Source: Tessaracoccus coleopterorum
GTDB taxonomy: Bacteria; Actinomycetota; Actinomycetes; Propionibacteriales; Propionibacteriaceae
DNA: 64,000 nt
NCBI RefSeq assembly: GCF_011174705.1
Contig: NZ_JAANIJ010000001.1
Coordinates: 1,612,001 to 1,676,000, forward strand
Direction of reading: 5' to 3'
A program made the translations under genes and the position numbers. The notes below the pieces were generated by a model. It searched no databases, was not told where the DNA came from, and saw nothing but the letters and a program-made list of their open reading frames with translations. Every line of letters starts with the position of its first letter. Within the stretch, counting starts at the first letter, position 1. Positions 4,972 to 13,830 of this stretch are shown here, piece by piece.

Positions 4972-5280
4972 ATGGGCGATAAGTCCGTTGACCGCGCTGC
5001 TATGCAGAAGGCCACGCAGCAGATCGAGACCAAGCACCAGCAGATCCACCAGCTGCAGAGCCGCCTCCAGGGCCAGATGATCGACCTCTCCTCGCGCTGG
5101 CACGGCAACGCCTCGACCGCGTTCCAGCAGGGCTACCAGCAGTTCGACACGGAGTTCGAGAAGGTCAAGCAGGGCCTGGACAAGATCCACACCTCCCTCG
5201 TTGAGACGCTCCGTGAGTACGGGTCGCGTGAGGAAGAGAACCAGGCCACCGCAAACCAGATCGCCGGCCTCATCGGCTGA
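4972..5280 (+). CDS. WXG100 family ESX substrate (first of pair)
   Basis: This is a small secreted helical-hairpin protein of the EsxA/EsxB type, 102 residues, with no frameshift. The WXG turn is WHG at residues ~43-45, between two amphipathic helices rich in Gln and Lys. A YxxxE secretion signal (YGSRE) follows the second helix near residue 83. It is followed 33 bases later by a second WXG100 gene; the two products probably form the usual heterodimer exported by the adjacent EccB/D/E machinery. I cannot tell from sequence whether it corresponds to EsxA or EsxB. Confidence 0.92.
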   Translation: MGDKSVDRAAMQKATQQIETKHQQIHQLQSRLQGQMIDLSSRWHGNASTAFQQGYQQFDTEFEKVKQGLDKIHTSLVETLREYGSREEENQATANQIAGLIG

Positions 5281-5313: not shown

Positions 5314-5604
5314 ATGAGCGATTCAACCACTTACTCCGTCGGCGGCCTGCAGGAGGGCATCAGCAACCTCTCCGCCGCCCACAAGGAACTCACCACCCTT
5401 CTCGAGGACCTCAAGGCTGAGCTGTCGACCTCGCTGGGCGCGTGGGAGGACAACGCCCGTAACGCCTACGTCGAGGTGCAGCGTTCGTGGGACGCCTCGG
5501 CCGCCAAGCAGCAGGACATCGTGCAGCGCATGCCCGTCCTCCTCGGCAACATCGCAGACGGCTACAACGCCACCGAGTCCCGCAACGCGGGCATCTGGGG
5601 CTGA
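5314..5604 (+). CDS. WXG100 family ESX substrate (second of pair)
   Basis: A 96-residue WXG100-family protein, intact. The turn is WED at residues ~43-45, so the glycine of the classical WXG is replaced by aspartate. The C-terminal secretion motif YxxxE is present as YNATE. A ribosome site (ATAGGAGACACC) precedes the ATG. It is the probable partner of the preceding WXG100 protein. A strong hairpin terminator closes the operon 10 bases after the stop. Confidence 0.9.
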   Translation: MSDSTTYSVGGLQEGISNLSAAHKELTTLLEDLKAELSTSLGAWEDNARNAYVEVQRSWDASAAKQQDIVQRMPVLLGNIADGYNATESRNAGIWG

Positions 5605-5614
5605 CCGGTTCCAA

Positions 5615-5663
5615 GCGCAACAGCAGTGGGGTCCGGCGATGCCGGGCCCCACTGCTGTTGCGC
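5615..5663. terminator. Bidirectional hairpin terminator
   Basis: A perfect 17-bp inverted repeat (5615-5631 with 5647-5663) has a 15-base loop that itself contains CCGGC/GCCGG. It lies between the WXG100 operon and the converging enolase gene and could stop transcription from both sides. No long T run follows. Confidence 0.8.
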
Positions 5664-5664
5664 G

Positions 5665-6940
5665 GGTTCCTTCGCGGATCAGGTGGCCCGCGGTGCGGCC
5701 CGCAGCGGGCCGCGAGCGGTAGGCCCCGCAGGCCTCGTCGATGCGGATGAGCTCGTTCCACTTCGCGGTGCGTTCGCCGCGTGCGATGGAGCCGACCTTG
5801 ACGATGTCGGCGCCCATCCCGAGGCGAGGTGCGCGACCGTCACGTCCTCCGTCTCGCCCGACCGGGCCGACACGATGACGCCGAGGCCCGCCTCGCGGGA
5901 GGCGCGCACCGCGGCCGCGGCGGCGCTGACGGTGCCCGCCTGATTCACCTTGATCAGCGACGCCTCCACCTCGCGCGCGGCCGCGGCGGACCGCACCCGC
6001 CCCGCATCGGTCACCAGGTAGTCGTCGCCGACGACGACCGCGGGAACGGTCGACACGGCCAGTGCCATGCCCTCCGGATCGTCCTCGCCGGCCGGGTCCT
6101 CGATCGTGGCGACCGGGAAGTCCTCGCACAGGCCGCGCAGTTCGCCGATCCACTCCCGGTCGGGTACCCGGTTCCCGCGATCCGGTAGGCGCCGTCGACC
6201 AGGAACTGGGTGGCCGCGATGTCGAGGGCGATGGCGATGTCGACGCCGGGCCTGAGACCCGCGAGTTCCATGCCGTCGACCAGCACCTGCAGCGCGTCGC
6301 GGGTGCCTGCGACCTCGGGCCAGTGCCCGCCCTCGTCGGCGACCCCGCGGGGTTCGCCGCGGCGGAGCATCACGTCGCCGACGGCCAGATACACCTCGGC
6401 CACGTGGCTCAGCGCGTCCGCGATGGTGGTCGCTGCGATGGGATAGACCATGAAGTCCTGCACGGCGACGCGGTGGGCGGCGTGCGCGCCGCCCCCATGA
6501 TCTGGATCTGGGGACGCGGGATGTGGGTCAGGGGCTGCCCGAGCCGGGCCCACAGCGGCAGGCCGAGCGAGGCGGCCCCGCGTGGGCCACAGCCATCGAC
6601 ACCGCCGTCGTGGTGTTGCCTCCGATGCCCGAGCGTTGCGGGTCGGGATCGGCGGCGTCGAGGATCGCGTCGATGGCCTCCTGGTCGGTGACCGGCATCC
6701 CACGCAGCGCGGGGGCAAGGGTCTCAGCCACCTTCCGCACCGCCTCACGCACGCCGAGGCCGCCCATCCGCCTGCCGCCGTCACGCAGTTCGATCGCCTC
6801 GCGGCGGCCGGTGGAGGCCCCTGCGGGGCGATCGCGCGCCCCACGGCCCCACCGATCGTCACCACCTCGGCCTCGATGGTGGGCAGTCCTCTGGAGTCCC
6901 AGACCTCCCTGGCGCGGATGTCTGCGATGGTGTCGGTCAT
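5665..6940 (-). CDS. Enolase paralogue with altered active-site residues
   Basis: Enolase converts 2-phosphoglycerate to phosphoenolpyruvate; this copy looks like a specialised paralogue. Conserved blocks are the catalytic loop GAST, GGAHA, QDFM, the acid/base glutamate motif DEGG, the metal ligands in ALDIAA, IEDP and VVGDD, the catalytic lysine in IKVNQAGT, and ERTAKWNELIRI near the C-terminus. Differences from usual enolases are DSRGLP for DSRGNP, PQGAST for PSGAST, and SARSGETED for SHRSGETED, so the histidine equivalent to yeast His373 is alanine (codon 5865-5867). It is the last gene of a five-gene sugar-acid operon. At least five frameshifts are present, and the 3' end is uncertain (5665-5681). 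Confidence 0.8.
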
Positions 6941-6943
6941 TTC

Positions 6944-7862
6944 TCACTGCTTCCGTGGGTGTCGGTGTGTGACGAGCTCCGAGACGGCCCGGTCGCGGAC
7001 CATCCGGCGCTCGGCCGGGTCAGATACTCGGCCGGTGAGGCGCCCGCGACGCGCGCGAGCTGCAGCGCGGGGAGGCACCGGGAGATGCGTTCGTCGAGCT
7101 CCGCCACCGGTTCCCAGTCGACCAGATCGAGGTAGGCACGGCGCAGGGCACCGGCCGCCCGGGCGAGGTTCGCCGCGTGCGGCGGGAGGTGGACGGCCTT
7201 GAGTTCCAGGTGGTTCAGGCAGAAGGCGACGTCGAAGGCGGGTCGCCCAGGTGGCGCACTCCGCGTCCAGGAGAACGGGCGAGGAGGCGCCCACGAGGAT
7301 GTTCTTCGGGCTCACGTCACCGTGGACGAGCGCGCGGGGTTCGCTCCGAGCATCCCGATGACGTCGGCGATGGCATCGGCCACCTCGGGGACGGCCAGCG
7401 CCGTCCTGCGCAGGTAGGGCTCGATCCGGAGCGACTCGAACTGGGCCTGGTTGGCGAACCCCGCCGCCAACCCGGGGGTCGCGGCACTCGCGGCGTGGAT
7501 GCGTCCCAGCATGCGGCCGACGGAGGCGGCGAAGCCGACGTCGACGAGGCCGCCAGCAGTTGCTCCTTCCAGTTCGGGAAGTCTCCGGGTGGGAGGTAGT
7601 CGAGCGCGACCGCGAAGGTCTCGGCGTCCGTCGCGAGCACCGCAGGAACCGCCTCAGGCACCACGGTGGCGACGTAGCGCAGCCACCGCGCCTCCGCCGC
7701 GCCCCGCTCGAGGGGGCGTGCCATTCCGCCTCGACCCGCAACCGGCCGAGGGCACGTTTGAGCACGAAGGCCCGGTCGCCCACCCTGACCAGCCGGATGT
7801 CGGAGGACACCCCTCCGGTCAGGGGCGTCAGCTCCGGCTCCTCCCCTCACGGAGGAGCCCCA
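6944..7862 (-). CDS. APH-family small-molecule kinase
   Basis: A protein of the aminoglycoside-phosphotransferase/choline-kinase fold, about 300 residues when rejoined. The Brenner motif HGDVSPKNIL supplies the catalytic Asp and metal-binding Asn, and LLDAEC follows as the DFG-like element. The N-lobe carries FVLKRA with the likely ATP-binding lysine. It starts near 7862, just after the uxuA stop, and ends 4 bases before the enolase start, so all are co-transcribed. Several frameshifts occur (near 7840, 7730, 7545, 7335 and 7255). The family includes kinases for sugars, methylthioribose, homoserine and fructosamine; the operon suggests a sugar acid or a three-carbon acid as substrate. Antibiotic resistance is unlikely given the context. 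Confidence 0.7.
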
Positions 7863-7868
7863 TGCGGG

Positions 7869-8946
7869 TCAGGATGGCGCGGTCGTCGTCCACCTGTCGT
7901 CCCTGCGGGCGGGATGGCCGTAGGCCGCGTGCTCGAGGCCACGGATGTAGCCGATGGCGAAGAGGCGGCCGAGCATCTCGTAGCCGGGCGCGTCGTTCGA
8001 CTCACCCTCGAGGGTCGGCACGTGGTCGGGGCGCATCGCGCCGCCGAACCCGATCTCGTGGTACGCCTCGAGGCAGGCGGCCATGTCGGTCTGACCCGCG
8101 TCGTGGAACGTCTCGCGGAACTCCTCGACGGTGCCCCTCACGTCGCGGAAGTGCACGAACGGGATCTTGGCCGTGCCGAACTCACGGATCAGGTCCGGGA
8201 TGCTGGTCTCTCCCGCGAGCACCTCCGGCATCAGCGCGAAGTTGCCCTGGCAGAACGTCATGCCGTTGTAGTCGGACGCGACGATGTCGAGCATGCGGCG
8301 GTAGTTCGCGACCGAGCCCATGATGCGCGGAACGCCACGGTCGAACGGCTGGGGCGGGTCGTCGGGATGCAGGGCCAGGCGGACGCCGGCCTTCTCGGCC
8401 TCCGGGACGACGGCCTTCAGGAAGTACGCGAGCGCGTCCCACATCTCCTCCGGGTGACCTCGCCCTCGGGAGCAGTGGTTCGCGCGCCTGCGCGACGGAA
8501 CGGTTGTAGCCCGTGACGAGGGCGCCGCCGCGGTCCTCGAGCGCGGTCGAGGTGCGACCCCAACTGCTGAGCGCCATCCAGTTGTAGGCCATGGTCGGCA
8601 CCCCGAGCACCCCGAGCGCCCGGATCTGCTCGATGAACTGCTCGATCTCCTCGTCGCGGCCGGGGAGCCCGAGGCGGGTGCGGTCCATCGGCGCGGTGTC
8701 CTCGGTGGCGATCAGCTTGAAGCCCCACTCCTCGTAGATCTCCTTGTTCCTGCGCAGCGCAGCGAGGCTCCACGGCACCTCCGAGCGGTCATCGATCTTC
8801 CAGCCGGCGCTGCCCACCGAGGCGAACATCCGCGTGTCCTGTTCACCTCCGTTCAGGACTCCGACGACGTTGTCGACACCGACCTGTCGGATGAGCTTCC
8901 AGTTGCGGGACGGTCGCGGGGGAAGGAACTCGCTGAGTTGGAGCAT
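7869..8946 (-). CDS. uxuA: Mannonate dehydratase family sugar-acid dehydratase (UxuA-like)
   Basis: This TIM-barrel sugar-acid dehydratase removes water from an aldonate or hexonate to give a 2-keto-3-deoxy acid. Seen motifs are LHPDDPP in the middle, IMGSVANYRRML, VHFRDVRG and a C-terminal GFGGAMRPDHVPT, all characteristic of the UxuA family. The rejoined length of about 358 residues is normal. One base is missing near 8460 (VTPEEMWDAL is restored by one C). It starts 3 bases after the preceding SDR stop. The substrate may be D-mannonate or a related acid; the accompanying lactonase and diketo-acid hydrolase make a non-standard substrate possible. Confidence 0.85.
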
Positions 8947-8948
8947 GG

Positions 8949-9773
8949 TCACACCTTCTGTAGTCGTCGGGTCAGGGCTTCTCGGGAGAGCGGCCGCGGT
9001 ACGCGCCAGCAGGCCGCCGTCGACGCGGATCTCCGCACCGGTGATGAAGCTGGCCTCCGAGCTGGCCAGGAACGAGCAGGTGCTTCCGAGCTCGGAGGGG
9101 CGGCCCACACGGCCGAGCGGGTGCATCCTGCCCCACTCGGCGATGACCCCTCTTCTCCGGCGTCGGTGCCGTCGGACCAGTCACGCGCCGCGGCGCGCAG
9201 CATCGGGGTGTCCACCGATCCGGGCAGCACCGCGTTGACCCGGACCCCGTAGGCGGCCTCGTCGACCGCGAGAGCGCGGGCCATCGCGTTGAGGGCACCC
9301 TTGGTGGAGGTGTAGCCCACCACGTTGTTCTGGGTGGCGACGCCCTGGGCGGACGAGATCAGCGAGATCGTACCGGCGTTGCGTCGAATCTCCGCGATGG
9401 CCGCATGCACCGCCAGGAAGACACCACGTACGTTGACCGCGAAGACGCGGTCGAAATCGGCGGGCGTCGTCTCGGCTGCGTCGCCGTAGGTCTGGATCCC
9501 TGCCGACGTGACGAGGTGGTCGATGCGTCCGAAGGCCGACATGGCAGCCTCGACCAGCGCGGTGTGCGTCTCCTCGAGCGACACCTCTCCTGCCACCCCG
9601 ACGGCCGCACCACCGTCCGCGATGATCCGTGCGACGCCCTGGTCGACCTCCTCCCGGCTGAGCCCATGGATGACGACCGAGGCGCCGTCGGCCGCGAAGG
9701 CCTCCACCACTCCCCGACCGATTCCTGCCGAACCGCCTGTGACGATGACGACCTTTCCGGTGTGCCTGCCCAT
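8949..9773 (-). CDS. Short-chain dehydrogenase/reductase, sugar-acid operon
   Basis: A classical SDR with the cofactor motif TGGSAGIGRG near residue 12, NAG-like TSAGI, the catalytic Ser region SLISSAQG, the YTSTKGA (Tyr-x-x-x-Lys) motif and the C-terminal ITGAEIRVDGG. Shifts near 9150 and 9000 split it; the restored C-terminus REALTRRLQKV stops at 8949, 3 bases before the uxuA ATG. It probably oxidises or reduces a hydroxyl on a sugar or sugar acid with NAD(P). It is the second gene of the leftward operon. Confidence 0.85.
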   Translation of the reverse strand: MGRHTGKVVIVTGGSAGIGRGVVEAFAADGASVVIHGLSREEVDQGVARIIADGGAAVGVAGEVSLEETHTALVEAAMSAFGRIDHLVTSAGIQTYGDAAETTPADFDRVFAVNVRGVFLAVHAAIAEIRRNAGTISLISSAQGVATQNNVVGYTSTKGALNAMARALAVDEAAYGVRVNAVLPGSVDTPMLRAAARDWSDGTDAGEEGSSPSGAGCTRSAVWAAPPSSEAPARSWPARRPASSPVRRSASTAACWRVPRPLSREALTRRLQKV

Positions 9774-9821: not shown

Positions 9822-10481
9822 TCAGAGCACGCCGAAGCGTGCGAATGCCTCGGTGGCGCTCATCCCGCCGGCGATGGCCGCGGCGACGAGGTTCTCCGTT
9901 CCCGCCTTCTCAAGGGCGGCCCGATCACCTCGTCCTCGAGTTCCTGCGGGATCACGAGCACGCCGTCGACGTCACCGAAGATCAGGTCGCCCGGCGCGAT
10001 GCGGACGCCACCGACCTCGACGGGCACGCGGAACTCTCGGACCACCGTGCGCACGGACGAGTCCTGCGCGTAGCCGCCCCAGCTGAAGACGGGGAAGTCG
10101 CGCGCGAGGGTCTGGGGGTGTCGCGATGGTAGCCGTCGACGACGGCACCGACCGCCCCCGCTGCTGGGCCGTCGTGGTGAGGATCTCGCCCCACATCGCC
10201 ACCGGCTGCACCACGCGGGTACCCACCCACACCTCGCCGGGACGGAGTTGGTCGAGGGCCTCGGTGAGGTACCCGAAGGGCTTCTCCTGCGGGCCGTACA
10301 CGTCCGCGACGAGGACGGGCATCGCCCTGCCTGCGAGCTTCATCTCCGGGCGCAGCGGGCGGACGGCCGGCGGGAGGAACTGGTGCGTCCGTCCGAGCCG
10401 GTCGAGGATGTCGCCCACGACAGGCGTGTACAGCGACGTCCTCATGAGTTGGAGGAGTTCCTCGTCGGTATGTTGACCCAT
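9822..10481 (-). CDS. RraA-like aldolase/hydrolase family protein
   Basis: The protein belongs to the RraA-like fold, which includes 4-hydroxy-4-methyl-2-oxoglutarate aldolases and oxaloacetate decarboxylases. Signature segments are VVGDILDRLGR near the N-terminus and VPVEVGGVRIAPGDLIFGD followed by DGVLVIP, whose Asp binds the divalent metal. The rejoined protein is ~219 residues, with shifts near 10110 and 9910. It is the first gene of the leftward operon, starting 94 bases from the divergent GntR gene. A retro-aldol cleavage of a keto acid is a plausible role; the substrate is unknown. Confidence 0.78.
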
Positions 10482-10530
10482 GATCCTCGCTTCGTTGCTG
10501 GAACTCGACTAGCCACCACAATCGTGACAT

Positions 10531-10544
10531 ACTTGTATACTAGT
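10531..10544. promoter_or_regulatory. Near-perfect palindrome, likely GntR operator
   Basis: ACTTGTATACTAGT reads as ACTnGTATACnAGT, symmetric at 12 of 14 positions. The GTATAC core resembles operators of GntR/FadR-type regulators. It lies in the 93-base gap between the divergent RraA and GntR genes and contains a -10-like TATACT at 10536-10541. Autoregulation and control of both operons is inferred. Confidence 0.65.
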
Positions 10545-10574
10545 TTCAAGAGTCGACGAGAGGAGGGCAGGTCG

Positions 10575-11287
10575 ATGCTGGACACACCGCAGGCAACCCT
10601 GTCATCGCTGCAACCCCTTGCCAGCCCGAAGTCGCGCTACCGGATCTCCGACGCGGTGTTCGAGTCGCTCAGCGAGTCGATCCGCAATCTGCGGCTCCCA
10701 CCCGGCTCCCCCATTTCGGAGCCCGCGATCGCCGCCTCGCTCCAGGTGAGCCGCTCGCCCGTCCGCGAGGCGATCACCCGCCTGGTGGATCTGGGGCTCG
10801 TCTCGGTGGTTCCTCAGGTGGGGAGCCGGATCGCGCCCATCTCACTGCGCGAGGTCGACGAGGCCGTCTTCATCCGTCGGGCGTTGGAGACCAGCGCCTT
10901 CACCTACGCCATCCGTGACGTCCGCCCTGACGTCTCCGAGATCCAGGGCCACGTCAATGCCAACGCGGCCGCCGCGGCCGAGGGCGACGCGGAGCGGTTC
11001 TTCGAGACCGACGAGCTGATCCATCAGGCGGTGTTCATCCTCGCGGGTGTGCCCCGCCTCTGGGACGTGGTGCGCGGAACGAAGATGCAGCTCGACAGGC
11101 TCCGGCGCCTCCATCTGGATGCCGCCCTGTCCAGTGAGGACCTGCTGGCCGAGCACCAGGCCCTCGTCGACGCCCTCGCCGATCGCGACCTGCCGAGGGC
11201 ACCGCCCTGATCGACGAGCACGCGACGCGCATCCTCTCCGATACCACCCGGCTCCGCGAGAGCCATCCGAGCTTCTTCACCGACTGA
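10575..11287 (+). CDS. GntR family (FCD) transcriptional regulator
   Basis: The N-terminal winged-helix domain contains RLPPGSPISEPAIAASLQVSRSPVREAITRL, a textbook GntR recognition helix pattern (described here by its segments RLPPGSPIS and SRSPVREAI). The C-terminal ~130 residues match the all-helical FCD sensor domain with Asp/His metal-ligand positions (FFETDELIHQAV). A ribosome site GAGGAGGGCAG precedes the ATG. One shift near 11205 separates the last 27 residues. It sits at the divergence point of the sugar-acid cluster and is the natural local repressor, with an acid intermediate as probable effector. Confidence 0.88.
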
Positions 11288-11308
11288 TCCTCCACACGTT
11301 CAGGAGAA

Positions 11309-12168
11309 ATGAAAGTGACCGAACACGTCAACGTCGTCGTACCTCGTCACACACAATGCGGAGAGGGTCCGTACTGGGACCCGGAGAGCCGCACCGTCGT
11401 CTGGGTGGACATCATCGGTAAACAGGCGCTGCGCACCACGATCGGCGGCGACACCACCGTGATCGACTATCCAGAGATGGTCGGGGCCGCCGCCCCGCGC
11501 GTCGGCGGCGGGCTGGTGCTGGCCGTCGAGTCCGGCTTCGCGCTGCTCGACGCCACCGGCGAGGTCACCTCATGGGTCGACGTGCTGACGCCGCCGCTCC
11601 GGATGAACGACGCGAAGGTCGATCCGGCCGGGCGCTACTGGGCCGGGGCCTGCGCCATGGACTTCAGCGAGGGAAAGGGCGGGCTCTGGCGGCTGGACGA
11701 GAACCTGTCCGCCGAGCTGGTGCTCGACGGCCTGACGCAGCCCAACGGGATCGGTTGGAGCCCTGACGGCACCACGATGTATCTGGCCGAGACCCAGGCC
11801 CGCCAGCTCCTCAGCTACGGGTTCGACCCCGTCACGTCCAACATCCTGAGCGGGCCGTCGGTCGTCGCGGAGGGCTTCGCCGACTACCCGGACGGCCTCT
11901 GCGTCGACCGGGACGGCCACATCTGGCTCGCCGAGTACGGCGGGGCGTCGTGCACGAGATCACCCCCGACGGCGACGTGGTGCGGAGCATCCGGTTCGAC
12001 ACCCCTCAGACCACGTCGTGTGCCTTCGTGGGCGACGACCTCGACACCCTCCTGGTCACCACCGCCGGCGTGGGCCTCGACCCGGAGACCGATCCGATCG
12101 CCGGGTCCCTCCTCGAGATCACCGGGCACGGCACCGCCGGGCTCGCAGTCGCCCTGTTCAAGGGCTGA
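11309..12168 (+). CDS. SMP-30/gluconolactonase family lactonase
   Basis: A six-bladed propeller lactonase that opens aldonolactones to sugar acids. Seen family signatures are the N-terminal GEGPYWDPES (metal-binding Glu), LRMNDAKVDPAGRYWAG (Asn/Asp ligands), LTQPNGIGWSPDGTTMYLAET and YPDGLCVDRDGHIWLAEY. Length of about 286 residues is normal. A one-base loss near 11943 shifts the last third. It starts 22 bases after the GntR stop with ribosome site CAGGAGAA. It would supply the acid for the UxuA-like dehydratase on the other side of the divergon. Confidence 0.88.
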
Positions 12169-12230: not shown

Positions 12231-13083
12231 ATGCAGTTCCAACGCCTCGGCCCCTCGGCCGTGAGATCCCGGTCGCCGTCGTCGACGGCCGCACCCTCGA
12301 CCTGCGCCCGATCACTCCCGACATCACCGGTGACTTCCTGGCGGACGACCCGGTGGGCACGGTGACAGCCCGGTTGGGGGAACTCACCGACCTCGAGGGT
12401 GCCGCCGCGCTGCGCGTCGGGGCCCCGGTCGCCCGCCCCGGGTCGGTCTACTGCATCGGCATGAACTATGCCGCGCATGCCCGGGAGGGTGGGTCGGAGC
12501 CGCCGGAGCGGATCGTGGTGTTCATGAAACCGTCCCACACGCTCGCCGGCCCGGATGACGACTTCCCCGCATCGCGCGGGGCGCAGAAGCTCGACTGGGA
12601 GGTCGAGTTGGCCCTCGTGGTCGGTCGACGCGCCTGGAACCTCGGACCCGACGACGACGCGCGGGGCGTGATCGCCGGCTATGCCGTCGCCAACGACATC
12701 TCGGAGCGCGCCTGGCAGTTGGAGGAGTCGGGCGGTCAATGGTCCAAGGGAAAGAGCGGCCCGGGCTTCCTTCCGCTGGGCCCGGTGCTGGTCCCGACGG
12801 CCGACCTCGACCCGTCGGACCTGCGGTTGCGGTCGTGGGTGAACGGCGAGCCCCGCCAGGACTCGACCACCGCCGACCTGATCTTCGACATCGACACGAT
12901 CGTCCGTGACCTCAGCACCTACACCGTCCTCGAGCCTGGAGACGTCATCCTCACCGGCACACCGGAGGGCGTTGCCCTCTCGGGCCGCTTCCCGTACCTG
13001 GGCGTCGGCGATGTGATGGAGATCGACATCGAGGCCTGGGGCGACAGCGTCAGGTCGTCGTCGCAGACGGGACGCTGCGATGA
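12231..13083 (+). CDS. Fumarylacetoacetate hydrolase family protein
   Basis: This family hydrolyses C-C bonds of diketo acids or isomerises related products. Features are YCIGMNYAAHA, FMKPSHTLAGP, the metal-ligand pattern LDWEVELALVVGR and GYAVANDISERAWQ, and the C-terminal GDVILTGTPEGV. Length is ~283 residues. Shifts lie near 12261 and 13040. Its stop overlaps the next SDR start (ATGA at 13080-13083). In non-phosphorylative L-fucose and L-rhamnose pathways, such enzymes cleave 2,4-diketo-3-deoxy acids to pyruvate plus lactate or similar; that role fits here. Confidence 0.88.
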
Positions 13084-13830
13084 GCGATCCGCGCTTCGAC
13101 GGCCTCGTGGCCGTGGTCACCGGCGGCATGTCGGGGATCGGCGCCGCGTGCGCCGCCCGGCTGCAGGAACTCGGGCCGACGTGGCTGTGATCGACCGGGA
13201 TGTCTCCGCCGGGGCGTCGCCGGCGCTGTGCCTCGAGGCCGACGTGAGCGACGTGGCGGCGGTGGGGCCGCCGTCGCCGCGGTCGTCTCGCGGTGGGGCC
13301 GGATCGACATCCTCGTGAACTCGGCCGGGATCGGCGCTGCGGGAACCGTGCTCGAGAACGACGTGGAGGAGTGGCAGCGCGTCCTGGGCATCAACGTGAT
13401 CGGCATGGCCAACGTGGTCAAGGCGTGCCTTCCCCACCTGATCGCCTCGCCTGCGGCGAGCGTCGTCAACGTGTCGTCGGCGGTGGCCCTGACGGGCTTC
13501 CCGAACCGGGTGCTCTACACGGCGAGTAAGGGCGCGGTGCTGTCCATGACCCGCGCCATGGCCGTCGACCACCTGGCCGACGGCGTGCGCTTCAACGCCG
13601 TGTGCCCGGGCACCACGGAGACCCCGTGGATCGGCCGCCTGCTCGGCGACTCGGTCGACCCGGCGGCGGCGCGGGAGGCGCTGGAGGCGAGGCAGCCCCA
13701 CCACCGGTTGATCTCGGCCGAGGAGGTGGCCGAGGCGGTCGCCTACCTGGCCGGCCCGCGGTCGGCCTCGACGAACGGAGTGGCGCTGTCGGTGGACGCG
13801 GGTATCGAGTCGCTCTACGTGGCGCACTGA
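13080..13830 (+). CDS. Short-chain dehydrogenase/reductase, second in cluster
   Basis: A ~249-residue SDR with TGGMSGIGAA cofactor loop, VNSAGIG (NAG motif), VNVSSAVAL catalytic Ser and YTASKGA (Tyr/Lys). Two shifts, near 13170 and 13262, interrupt the N-terminal half. Translationally coupled to the FAH gene. In the analogous fuconate and rhamnonate routes an SDR oxidises the 2-keto-3-deoxy acid to the diketo acid, which the FAH enzyme then cleaves; I infer the same here. Confidence 0.87.

Follow-up and report, generated by a model that had tools for sequence, protein, structure and literature searches.

An enolase paralogue with replaced active-site residues and an adjoining kinase in Tessaracoccus coleopterorum: a family that may serve an ATP-dependent route to phosphoenolpyruvate

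Enolase is, to our knowledge, generally regarded as a one-reaction family. In the 64,000 nucleotide stretch of Tessaracoccus coleopterorum DNA that was analyzed here (the window) we find a gene whose product, judged by its sequence, is an enolase-family protein and not the housekeeping enolase. The replacement of a conserved active-site His in this protein defines a family that is widespread, is found in several phyla and nearly always adjoins a dedicated kinase. Annotation labels the family proteins as phosphopyruvate hydratase; by the two active-site features that were tested, Glu168 and His373, the window protein should not be filed under this name, and despite the enolase label the family's own substrate is probably a different phosphorylated acid from that of enolase. 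We see about an even chance that the kinase and the enolase-like protein form an ATP-dependent two-enzyme elimination module that yields phosphoenolpyruvate (PEP) or a substituted PEP. If the substrate of the pair does differ, a catabolic enzyme goes under the wrong name in many genomes, an entry into PEP metabolism has stayed hidden, and the enolase model TIGR01060 over-calls the family. The control that enolase exerts over its C3 leaving group could also be studied through the fixed His and Glu changes, which amount to a natural experiment. No paper on the kinase–enolase pair or on this set of residues was found in the open-access PMC literature.

The reverse complement of positions 5601-7000, read in three frames, places the paralogue on the minus strand, from about 6940 to 5689 (Table 1). 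Its motifs are scattered over all three frames: APQG, GGAHA, QDF, DEGG and LDIAA lie in one frame, GAST, IEDP, GDDY, KVNQ and SARSG in a second, and IVKVG and AKWNE in the third. Because the neighboring genes and the housekeeping eno of the same assembly are broken too, we read these frame breaks as assembly errors and not as the decay of a single gene. Most of the conserved genes that were inspected, in the window between 5689 and 12165 and at ~1062.7-1063.9 kb of G000:C1, carry frame breaks, and the tblastn matches to the kinase, UxuA, short-chain dehydrogenase, RraA and SMP-30 genes come in several pieces, either for all relatives or for a part of them. The genome measures 3.59 Mb in 2 contigs with an estimated completeness of 60.93%, which, together with the frame breaks, suggests an unpolished long-read assembly.

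Table 1. Features of the enolase paralogue and its operon in the window (positions are those of the window).
Feature	Position	Strand	Basis
Enolase paralogue	5689-6940	-	PF00113 over cut-off, PF03952 just under (6014-6940 fragment); frame-broken, at least five frame changes
Ala codon replacing the conserved His (His373)	5865-5867	-	Frame reading and family alignment
Asp codon replacing catalytic Glu168 (QDF for QEF)	6455-6457	-	Frame reading and family alignment
Apparent Gln codon of PQGAST	6821-6823	-	On frame change; artefact
Aminoglycoside phosphotransferase/methylthioribose kinase-type kinase	7009-7846	-	tblastn from L056, L057, L059-L061, L063; frame-broken
UxuA (mannonate dehydratase)-family protein	7887-8946	-	PF03786; matched by relatives' genes
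Short-chain dehydrogenase	8974-9773	-	PF00106/PF13561; matched by relatives' genes
RraA-like aldolase/decarboxylase	9825-10550	-	PF03737; matched by relatives' genes
GntR/FCD regulator, divergent	10530-11210	+	PF00392, PF07729; matched by relatives' genes
SMP-30/gluconolactonase-like	11303-12165	+	PF08450; matched by relatives' genes
Fumarylacetoacetate-hydrolase (FAH)-family, candidate 2,4-diketo acid hydrolase	12353-13315	+	PF01557; 44-46% to L061/L063 proteins
Second short-chain dehydrogenase	13228-13827	+	PF13561

The original prediction, made from the letters of the window, had read SARSGETED in place of SHRSGETED, and this was borne out: SARSG lies at 5870-5856 with its Ala codon at 5867-5865, as had been claimed. 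It had also described the Glu of DEGG, the Lys of KVNQ and the metal ligands as retained, and the reading of the frames confirms this, with DEGG at 6337-6326, KVNQ at 5951-5940 and the metal-ligand motifs LDIAA, IEDP and GDDY all present; Lys345, Glu211 and the three Mg2+ ligands are all found in the window copy. The second change that it cited, PQGAST in place of PSGAST, is ruled out as a true change, since APQG (6829-6818) and GAST (6821-6810) lie in different frames and the Gln codon sits on the frame change; the relatives have Ala (66/79) or Ser (13/79) at this position. A base-calling slip as the cause of the His to Ala change is likewise ruled out, as the change is common to the whole family. 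Absent from the original prediction were the minus strand, the frame changes, of which there are at least five, and further replacements, namely Glu168Asp (QDF at 6460-6452, where enolases carry QEF), N152Q, N155G and A215W.

Relatives were sought in GTDB genomes with the frame-joined protein as query, and the counts given here refer to the best 80 of 128 confirmed loci, whose proteins are 42-69% identical to the window protein. For the comparison of residues, 79 of these relatives (L072, which is truncated, was left out) were aligned with 66 housekeeping enolases, all from the window's phylum, which remained from 79 after identical sequences had been collapsed. Position 373 is His in all 66 housekeeping enolases and is Ala (70) or Gly (9) in all 79 relatives, while Glu168, again present in 66/66 housekeeping enolases, is Asp in 78 of the 79. 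The uniform Asn152 and Asn155 of the housekeeping enolases are Gln and Gly in every relative aligned, the Gly that uniformly precedes their DEGG is Ala in 79/79, and their uniform Ala215 is Trp in 78/79. Retained among the best 80 loci are the three Mg2+ ligands, Ser39 and His159 (80/80), Arg374, Ser375 and Lys396 (79/79 loci aligned there), Glu211 (79/80) and Lys345 (78 of 79 aligned, L072 being truncated before it). The exception at both of the last two positions is L110, where the gene at 10001-11224 retains Glu168 but has Gln for Glu211 and Thr for Lys345; no kinase adjoins it, and its catalytic pair would appear to be lost or changed again.

The yeast residue numbers used here (His373, Glu168, N152Q, N155G, A215W and the others) were placed by motif. 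The changed His373 presumably sits on the C3 side, and we take the replaced residues (Glu168Asp, His373Ala/Gly, Asn152Gln, Asn155Gly and Ala215Trp) to lie mostly toward the side of the C3 leaving group. In M. tuberculosis enolase, Lys335 abstracts the alpha proton, Glu204 works at C3, Glu163 (the equivalent of Glu168) touches the substrate carboxylate, Arg364 binds the phosphate and Ser42 is on the metal side (PMC10619443). On this map the carboxylate–phosphate–C2 end of the active site is largely kept in the family, and the contact of Glu163 with the carboxylate complicates a pure C3-side reading. For the exact role of His373 no paper was found in the open-access PMC literature.

The gene directly upstream of the window paralogue encodes the kinase, with HGDVSPKN from 7324 and DAE from 7267. 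It was assigned by tblastn from the relatives, and one of its fragments gave no match to Pfam at 1e-4. A same-strand kinase ORF is found in 74 of the best 80 loci, and ORF clustering on the same ORFs gives 74 too. When the nearest start codon is taken, no more than 30 bases separate the kinase stop and the enolase start in 72 of these 74 loci, and in 49 of the 74 the two genes overlap by 4 bases. Such a 4-base overlap is also seen in the annotation of Paracoccus seriniphilus (L136), between an 'aminoglycoside phosphotransferase family protein' and 'eno'. Among the six loci without the kinase, L089, L128 and L135 start at or near the enolase gene, so their upstream sequence is missing, and L090, L101 and L110 have upstream sequence but no adjoining kinase. 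The best kinase matches in the genomes of L090 and L101 lie on another contig (31% and 40% identity, respectively) and none was found in the genome of L110; altogether, a relative of the kinase is present in 48 of 49 host genomes searched. The HGD..PKN and DAE motifs are conserved among 40 aligned kinases, with the A of DAE nearly invariant. Methylthioribose kinase (MtnK) and related APH-fold kinases are the closest fold to the predicted kinase model (pLDDT 94.3), and MtnK is also the best NCBIfam match, though a weak one: the nearest folds are only 14-18% identical, and three kinases score 49-53 bits against the TIGR01767 (S-methyl-5-thioribose kinase) cut-off of 275.

That the window gene is not the housekeeping enolase had been part of the original prediction, together with the proposal to look for the housekeeping eno elsewhere in the genome. 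It was found, in the stretch of G000:C1 named above, with PSGAST, HADSNVDVQEF, DEGG, KVNQ and SHRSGETED, so the paralogue is not the sole enolase; the residue changes fixed across the family point the same way. A canonical-level enolase (PF00113 at 387 bits or more) stands alongside the family member in 44 of the 49 host genomes searched, which come from 50 of the 80 loci, and the paralogues themselves score 216-315 bits with PF00113, the one exception being the second, broken copy in G297. In G266, G272, G279 and G284 the search turned up the paralogue alone, and in G288 it added no more than a fragment of 26 residues; the loci of these five genomes (L064, L071, L083, L090 and L099) are MAG records. 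In a survey of the genus (39 genomes), 37 genomes besides the window's own were matched at 40-43% identity, which is the housekeeping level, and G009 had no match at the limit used. The family gene is therefore rare in the genus sample, where none of the other 38 genomes has a match above that level. E-value alone failed to split the family from housekeeping copies in the PF00113, protein and profile searches of the relatives, the genus and the phylum.

A phylogeny with other enolases, as had been suggested, was made as a quick maximum-likelihood tree of 51 rows (28 of the 80 family loci and the window, 15 housekeeping enolases and 7 other paralogues). The family and the window form one side of a branch with a support of 92, which is below the star level of 95, and the window gene groups with L056 in a Microbacteriaceae/Micrococcaceae set. 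Family members assigned to different phyla interleave in the tree, which suggests horizontal transfer of the family. The AlphaFold model of L056 (pLDDT 92.3) matched the enolase fold, an N-terminal domain plus barrel, and its best match is the M. tuberculosis enolase 7clk (Z 58.5, rmsd 1.4 over 415 residues, 43% identity); with TIGR01060, four relatives score 385-485 bits, over the cut-off of 300. The family thus shares with enolase (TIGR01060, PF00113) the predicted fold, the Mg2+ ligands and the residues Ser39, His159, Glu211, Lys345, Arg374, Ser375 and Lys396, but differs from it by the replacements at 373, 168, 152, 155 and 215, which are fixed or nearly so, by the kinase pairing and by its coexistence with a housekeeping copy in most of the hosts searched.

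The claim that the paralogue belongs to a catabolic operon is supported by the gene families around it (Table 1), which read as those of sugar-acid catabolism. All seven query relatives' genes match parts of this stretch (tblastn), and the order RraA, short-chain dehydrogenase, UxuA, kinase and enolase recurs in L056, L057, L058 and L059. The FAH homologues of L063 and L136 best match NF053535 (2,4-didehydro-3-deoxy-L-rhamnonate hydrolase), below its cut-off; pathways of this kind convert a sugar acid to pyruvate and a short hydroxy acid. Among the best 80 loci, our own gene caller finds within 7 kb a LacI regulator in at least 14 loci, a 2-hydroxyacid dehydrogenase in at least 13, a UxuA-like protein in at least 8, an FAH protein in at least 8, RraA in at least 7, IlvD in at least 6 and an HpcH-type aldolase in at least 4; these are minimum counts, as the caller passed over some genes, such as the FAH gene in L136 and the L058 kinase. 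ORF clustering places a D-2-hydroxyacid dehydrogenase in 21 of the same 80 loci, at any distance in the locus. L134 contains LarA-like nickel isomerases, L116 contains a PanE-like reductase, and in Paracoccus seriniphilus a diketo-hydrolase-type protein adjoins the pair. The neighbors of the kinase in Rhizobium indicum are a 2-hydroxyacid dehydrogenase-like protein and PEP carboxylase; the enolase paralogue is found there on the opposite strand, ~4.6 kb away. Many other pairs lie among genes without an evident metabolic link. Where there is a common thread in these neighborhoods, it would seem to be 2-hydroxy acids and PEP, and not one sugar.

The Rhizobium genes lie on a plasmid (L138, 17898-22728), where the kinase, the 2-hydroxyacid dehydrogenase-like gene and PEP carboxylase follow each other; we take this row to resemble the last steps of the serine cycle, from hydroxypyruvate to oxaloacetate.

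In the elimination module that we propose, the kinase would phosphorylate the 2-OH of a small 2-hydroxy acid with ATP, Lys345 of the enolase-like enzyme would take the C2 proton with expulsion of the C3 group, and the product, PEP or a C3-substituted PEP, would pass to central metabolism. Compared with D-2-phosphoglycerate, the substrate would be altered on the C3 side, in a substituent or in the leaving group, or it would be of the opposite hand (2-phospho-L-glycerate). In the window, the lactonase, the UxuA-type dehydratase, the dehydrogenase and the diketo-acid hydrolase may together turn a sugar acid into pyruvate plus a short 2-hydroxy acid, and this 2-hydroxy acid would feed the kinase. 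The module is favored by the fixed residue changes, the kinase pairing and the canonical enolase present in most hosts, and also by neighbors of the kinds that make or interconvert 2-hydroxy acids, by the PEP carboxylase in Rhizobium and by the diketo-hydrolase in Paracoccus. Against it, the neighbor genes vary so widely among loci that they do not point to one pathway; L090, L101 and L110 have upstream sequence but no adjoining kinase, and L110 is also without Glu211 and Lys345; all four members that were scored exceed the NCBIfam enolase cut-off; and the window's order has sister paralogues in which the His and Glu replacements occur with no kinase of this type close by. We hold it a little short of an even bet that this is an unrecognized, widespread route in which an MtnK-fold kinase and a re-tooled enolase make PEP or substituted PEP from a non-canonical substrate.

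With the same tentative confidence we name, jointly, three candidate substrates for this route: the opposite-hand glycerate, a C3-substituted glycerate or a substrate with a leaving group other than water. The C3-substituted glycerate would fit the residue pattern best, without a named pathway. With L-glycerate as the starting acid, the presence of a dedicated kinase and enolase in the operon would make sense, but the retained Lys345 and Glu211 favor a D-type geometry at C2, which speaks against this version. Plain D-glycerate is less likely because a known D-glycerate kinase family occurs in 44 of 50 hosts (the 49 and the window's own genome): PF02595 and PF13660, which we take to be the D-glycerate kinase families, are over cut-off in 18/50 and 28/50, respectively, both in 2 and at least one in 44/50, the union being counted by hand from two tables. 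The altered specificity put forward in the original prediction thus keeps the support of the fixed residue changes and loses that of PQGAST, one of the two changes it had cited; we still infer it.

The sugar-acid type of the surrounding operons would also suit a pair that makes 2-phospho-aldonates from longer sugar acids and dehydrates them, replacing a sugar-acid dehydratase. The 26 features of the Paracoccus stretch, in a gene table that is incomplete, include kinase, eno, a diketo-hydrolase-type protein and dehydrogenases and no further annotated dehydratase, yet no phosphatase or pyruvate kinase for the enol phosphate is annotated there either. The window-type operons already hold a UxuA-type dehydratase and six loci an IlvD-type one, and we regard such a pair as unlikely. 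Slightly more doubtful is an operon enolase copy whose substrate would be the usual D-2-phosphoglycerate, the kinase then being a new D-glycerate 2-kinase. The serine-cycle-like dehydrogenase and PEP carboxylase genes beside the Rhizobium kinase would fit this, as would the four members that score as enolases by NCBIfam; however, two catalytic positions are altered in nearly the whole family, and the hosts mostly have a known D-glycerate kinase family (44/50) and a canonical-level enolase (44/49) already.

We give far less weight to the two remaining explanations. One is that the leaving group is not water, as in the conversion of 2-phospho-3-sulfolactate to PEP and sulfite, in which the ComA reaction of methanogens would run backward. 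The active-site segments, with their fixed Trp and an additional Arg that is frequent there, are in line with it, and so are the Desulfobulbaceae, Desulfofustis and Thioalkalivibrio loci in the family set and the ORFs on both sides of L134, which are TauE/SafE-like by eye; but the window-type members carry His at one Arg position, and the sulfite exporter family PF01925 occurs in 47/49 hosts and in 14/14 controls, so its presence is uninformative as a marker of a sulfonate route. PF01925 is also outside the 25 commonest families of either neighbor set, in a scan of up to four same-strand genes per locus that excluded the kinase and the enolase (217 named, 197 scanned) and left out L077, L078, L105 and L120 with their near-identical mycobacterial contexts. 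The sulfolactate route finds little support and is very improbable. It is just as improbable that the gene is a decaying pseudogene or encodes a moonlighting protein that is no enzyme; the window copy is indeed frame-broken, but so are its neighbors and the housekeeping eno of the same assembly, while the relatives are intact and, with a single exception, those aligned retain the Mg2+ ligands, the base and the acid.

Both halves of the proposed module have likenesses in known systems. Carboxyphosphonoenolpyruvate synthase of phosphinothricin biosynthesis is an enolase homologue with a changed reaction, and the family may be alike in this respect. The 25-hydroxysteroid kinase (9ft5) is an APH-like kinase that is paired with an elimination step; in that system a lyase step follows and the phosphate itself is said to leave, whereas in the family an enolase-like retention of the phosphate would be expected.

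Several further observations were made along the loci. In the window's order, L171-L176 hold a further set of enolase paralogues, in which SARSG and QD recur together with an AKWN ending; they have no Trp after DEGG, and no such kinase occurs in the 8.5-9 kb stretches that were read. The ORF directly after the paralogue in L171 and L172 resembles, by eye, a zinc-type alcohol dehydrogenase. A third kind of paralogue, with SHRSGETPD and HAPN..DFQEF, is seen in L169 and L170 of the window's genus; its branch in the tree is long and lies close to the housekeeping copies. Directly upstream of the pair in L096 (5950-8925) are a RACo-like corrinoid-activation gene and a pterin-binding methyltransferase-like gene, hinting at a methylated substrate that is demethylated there. 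Before the window operon, two small plus-strand ORFs (4972-5280 and 5314-5604) resemble WXG100 secretion substrates by eye, and this part of the window may be a type VII secretion locus.
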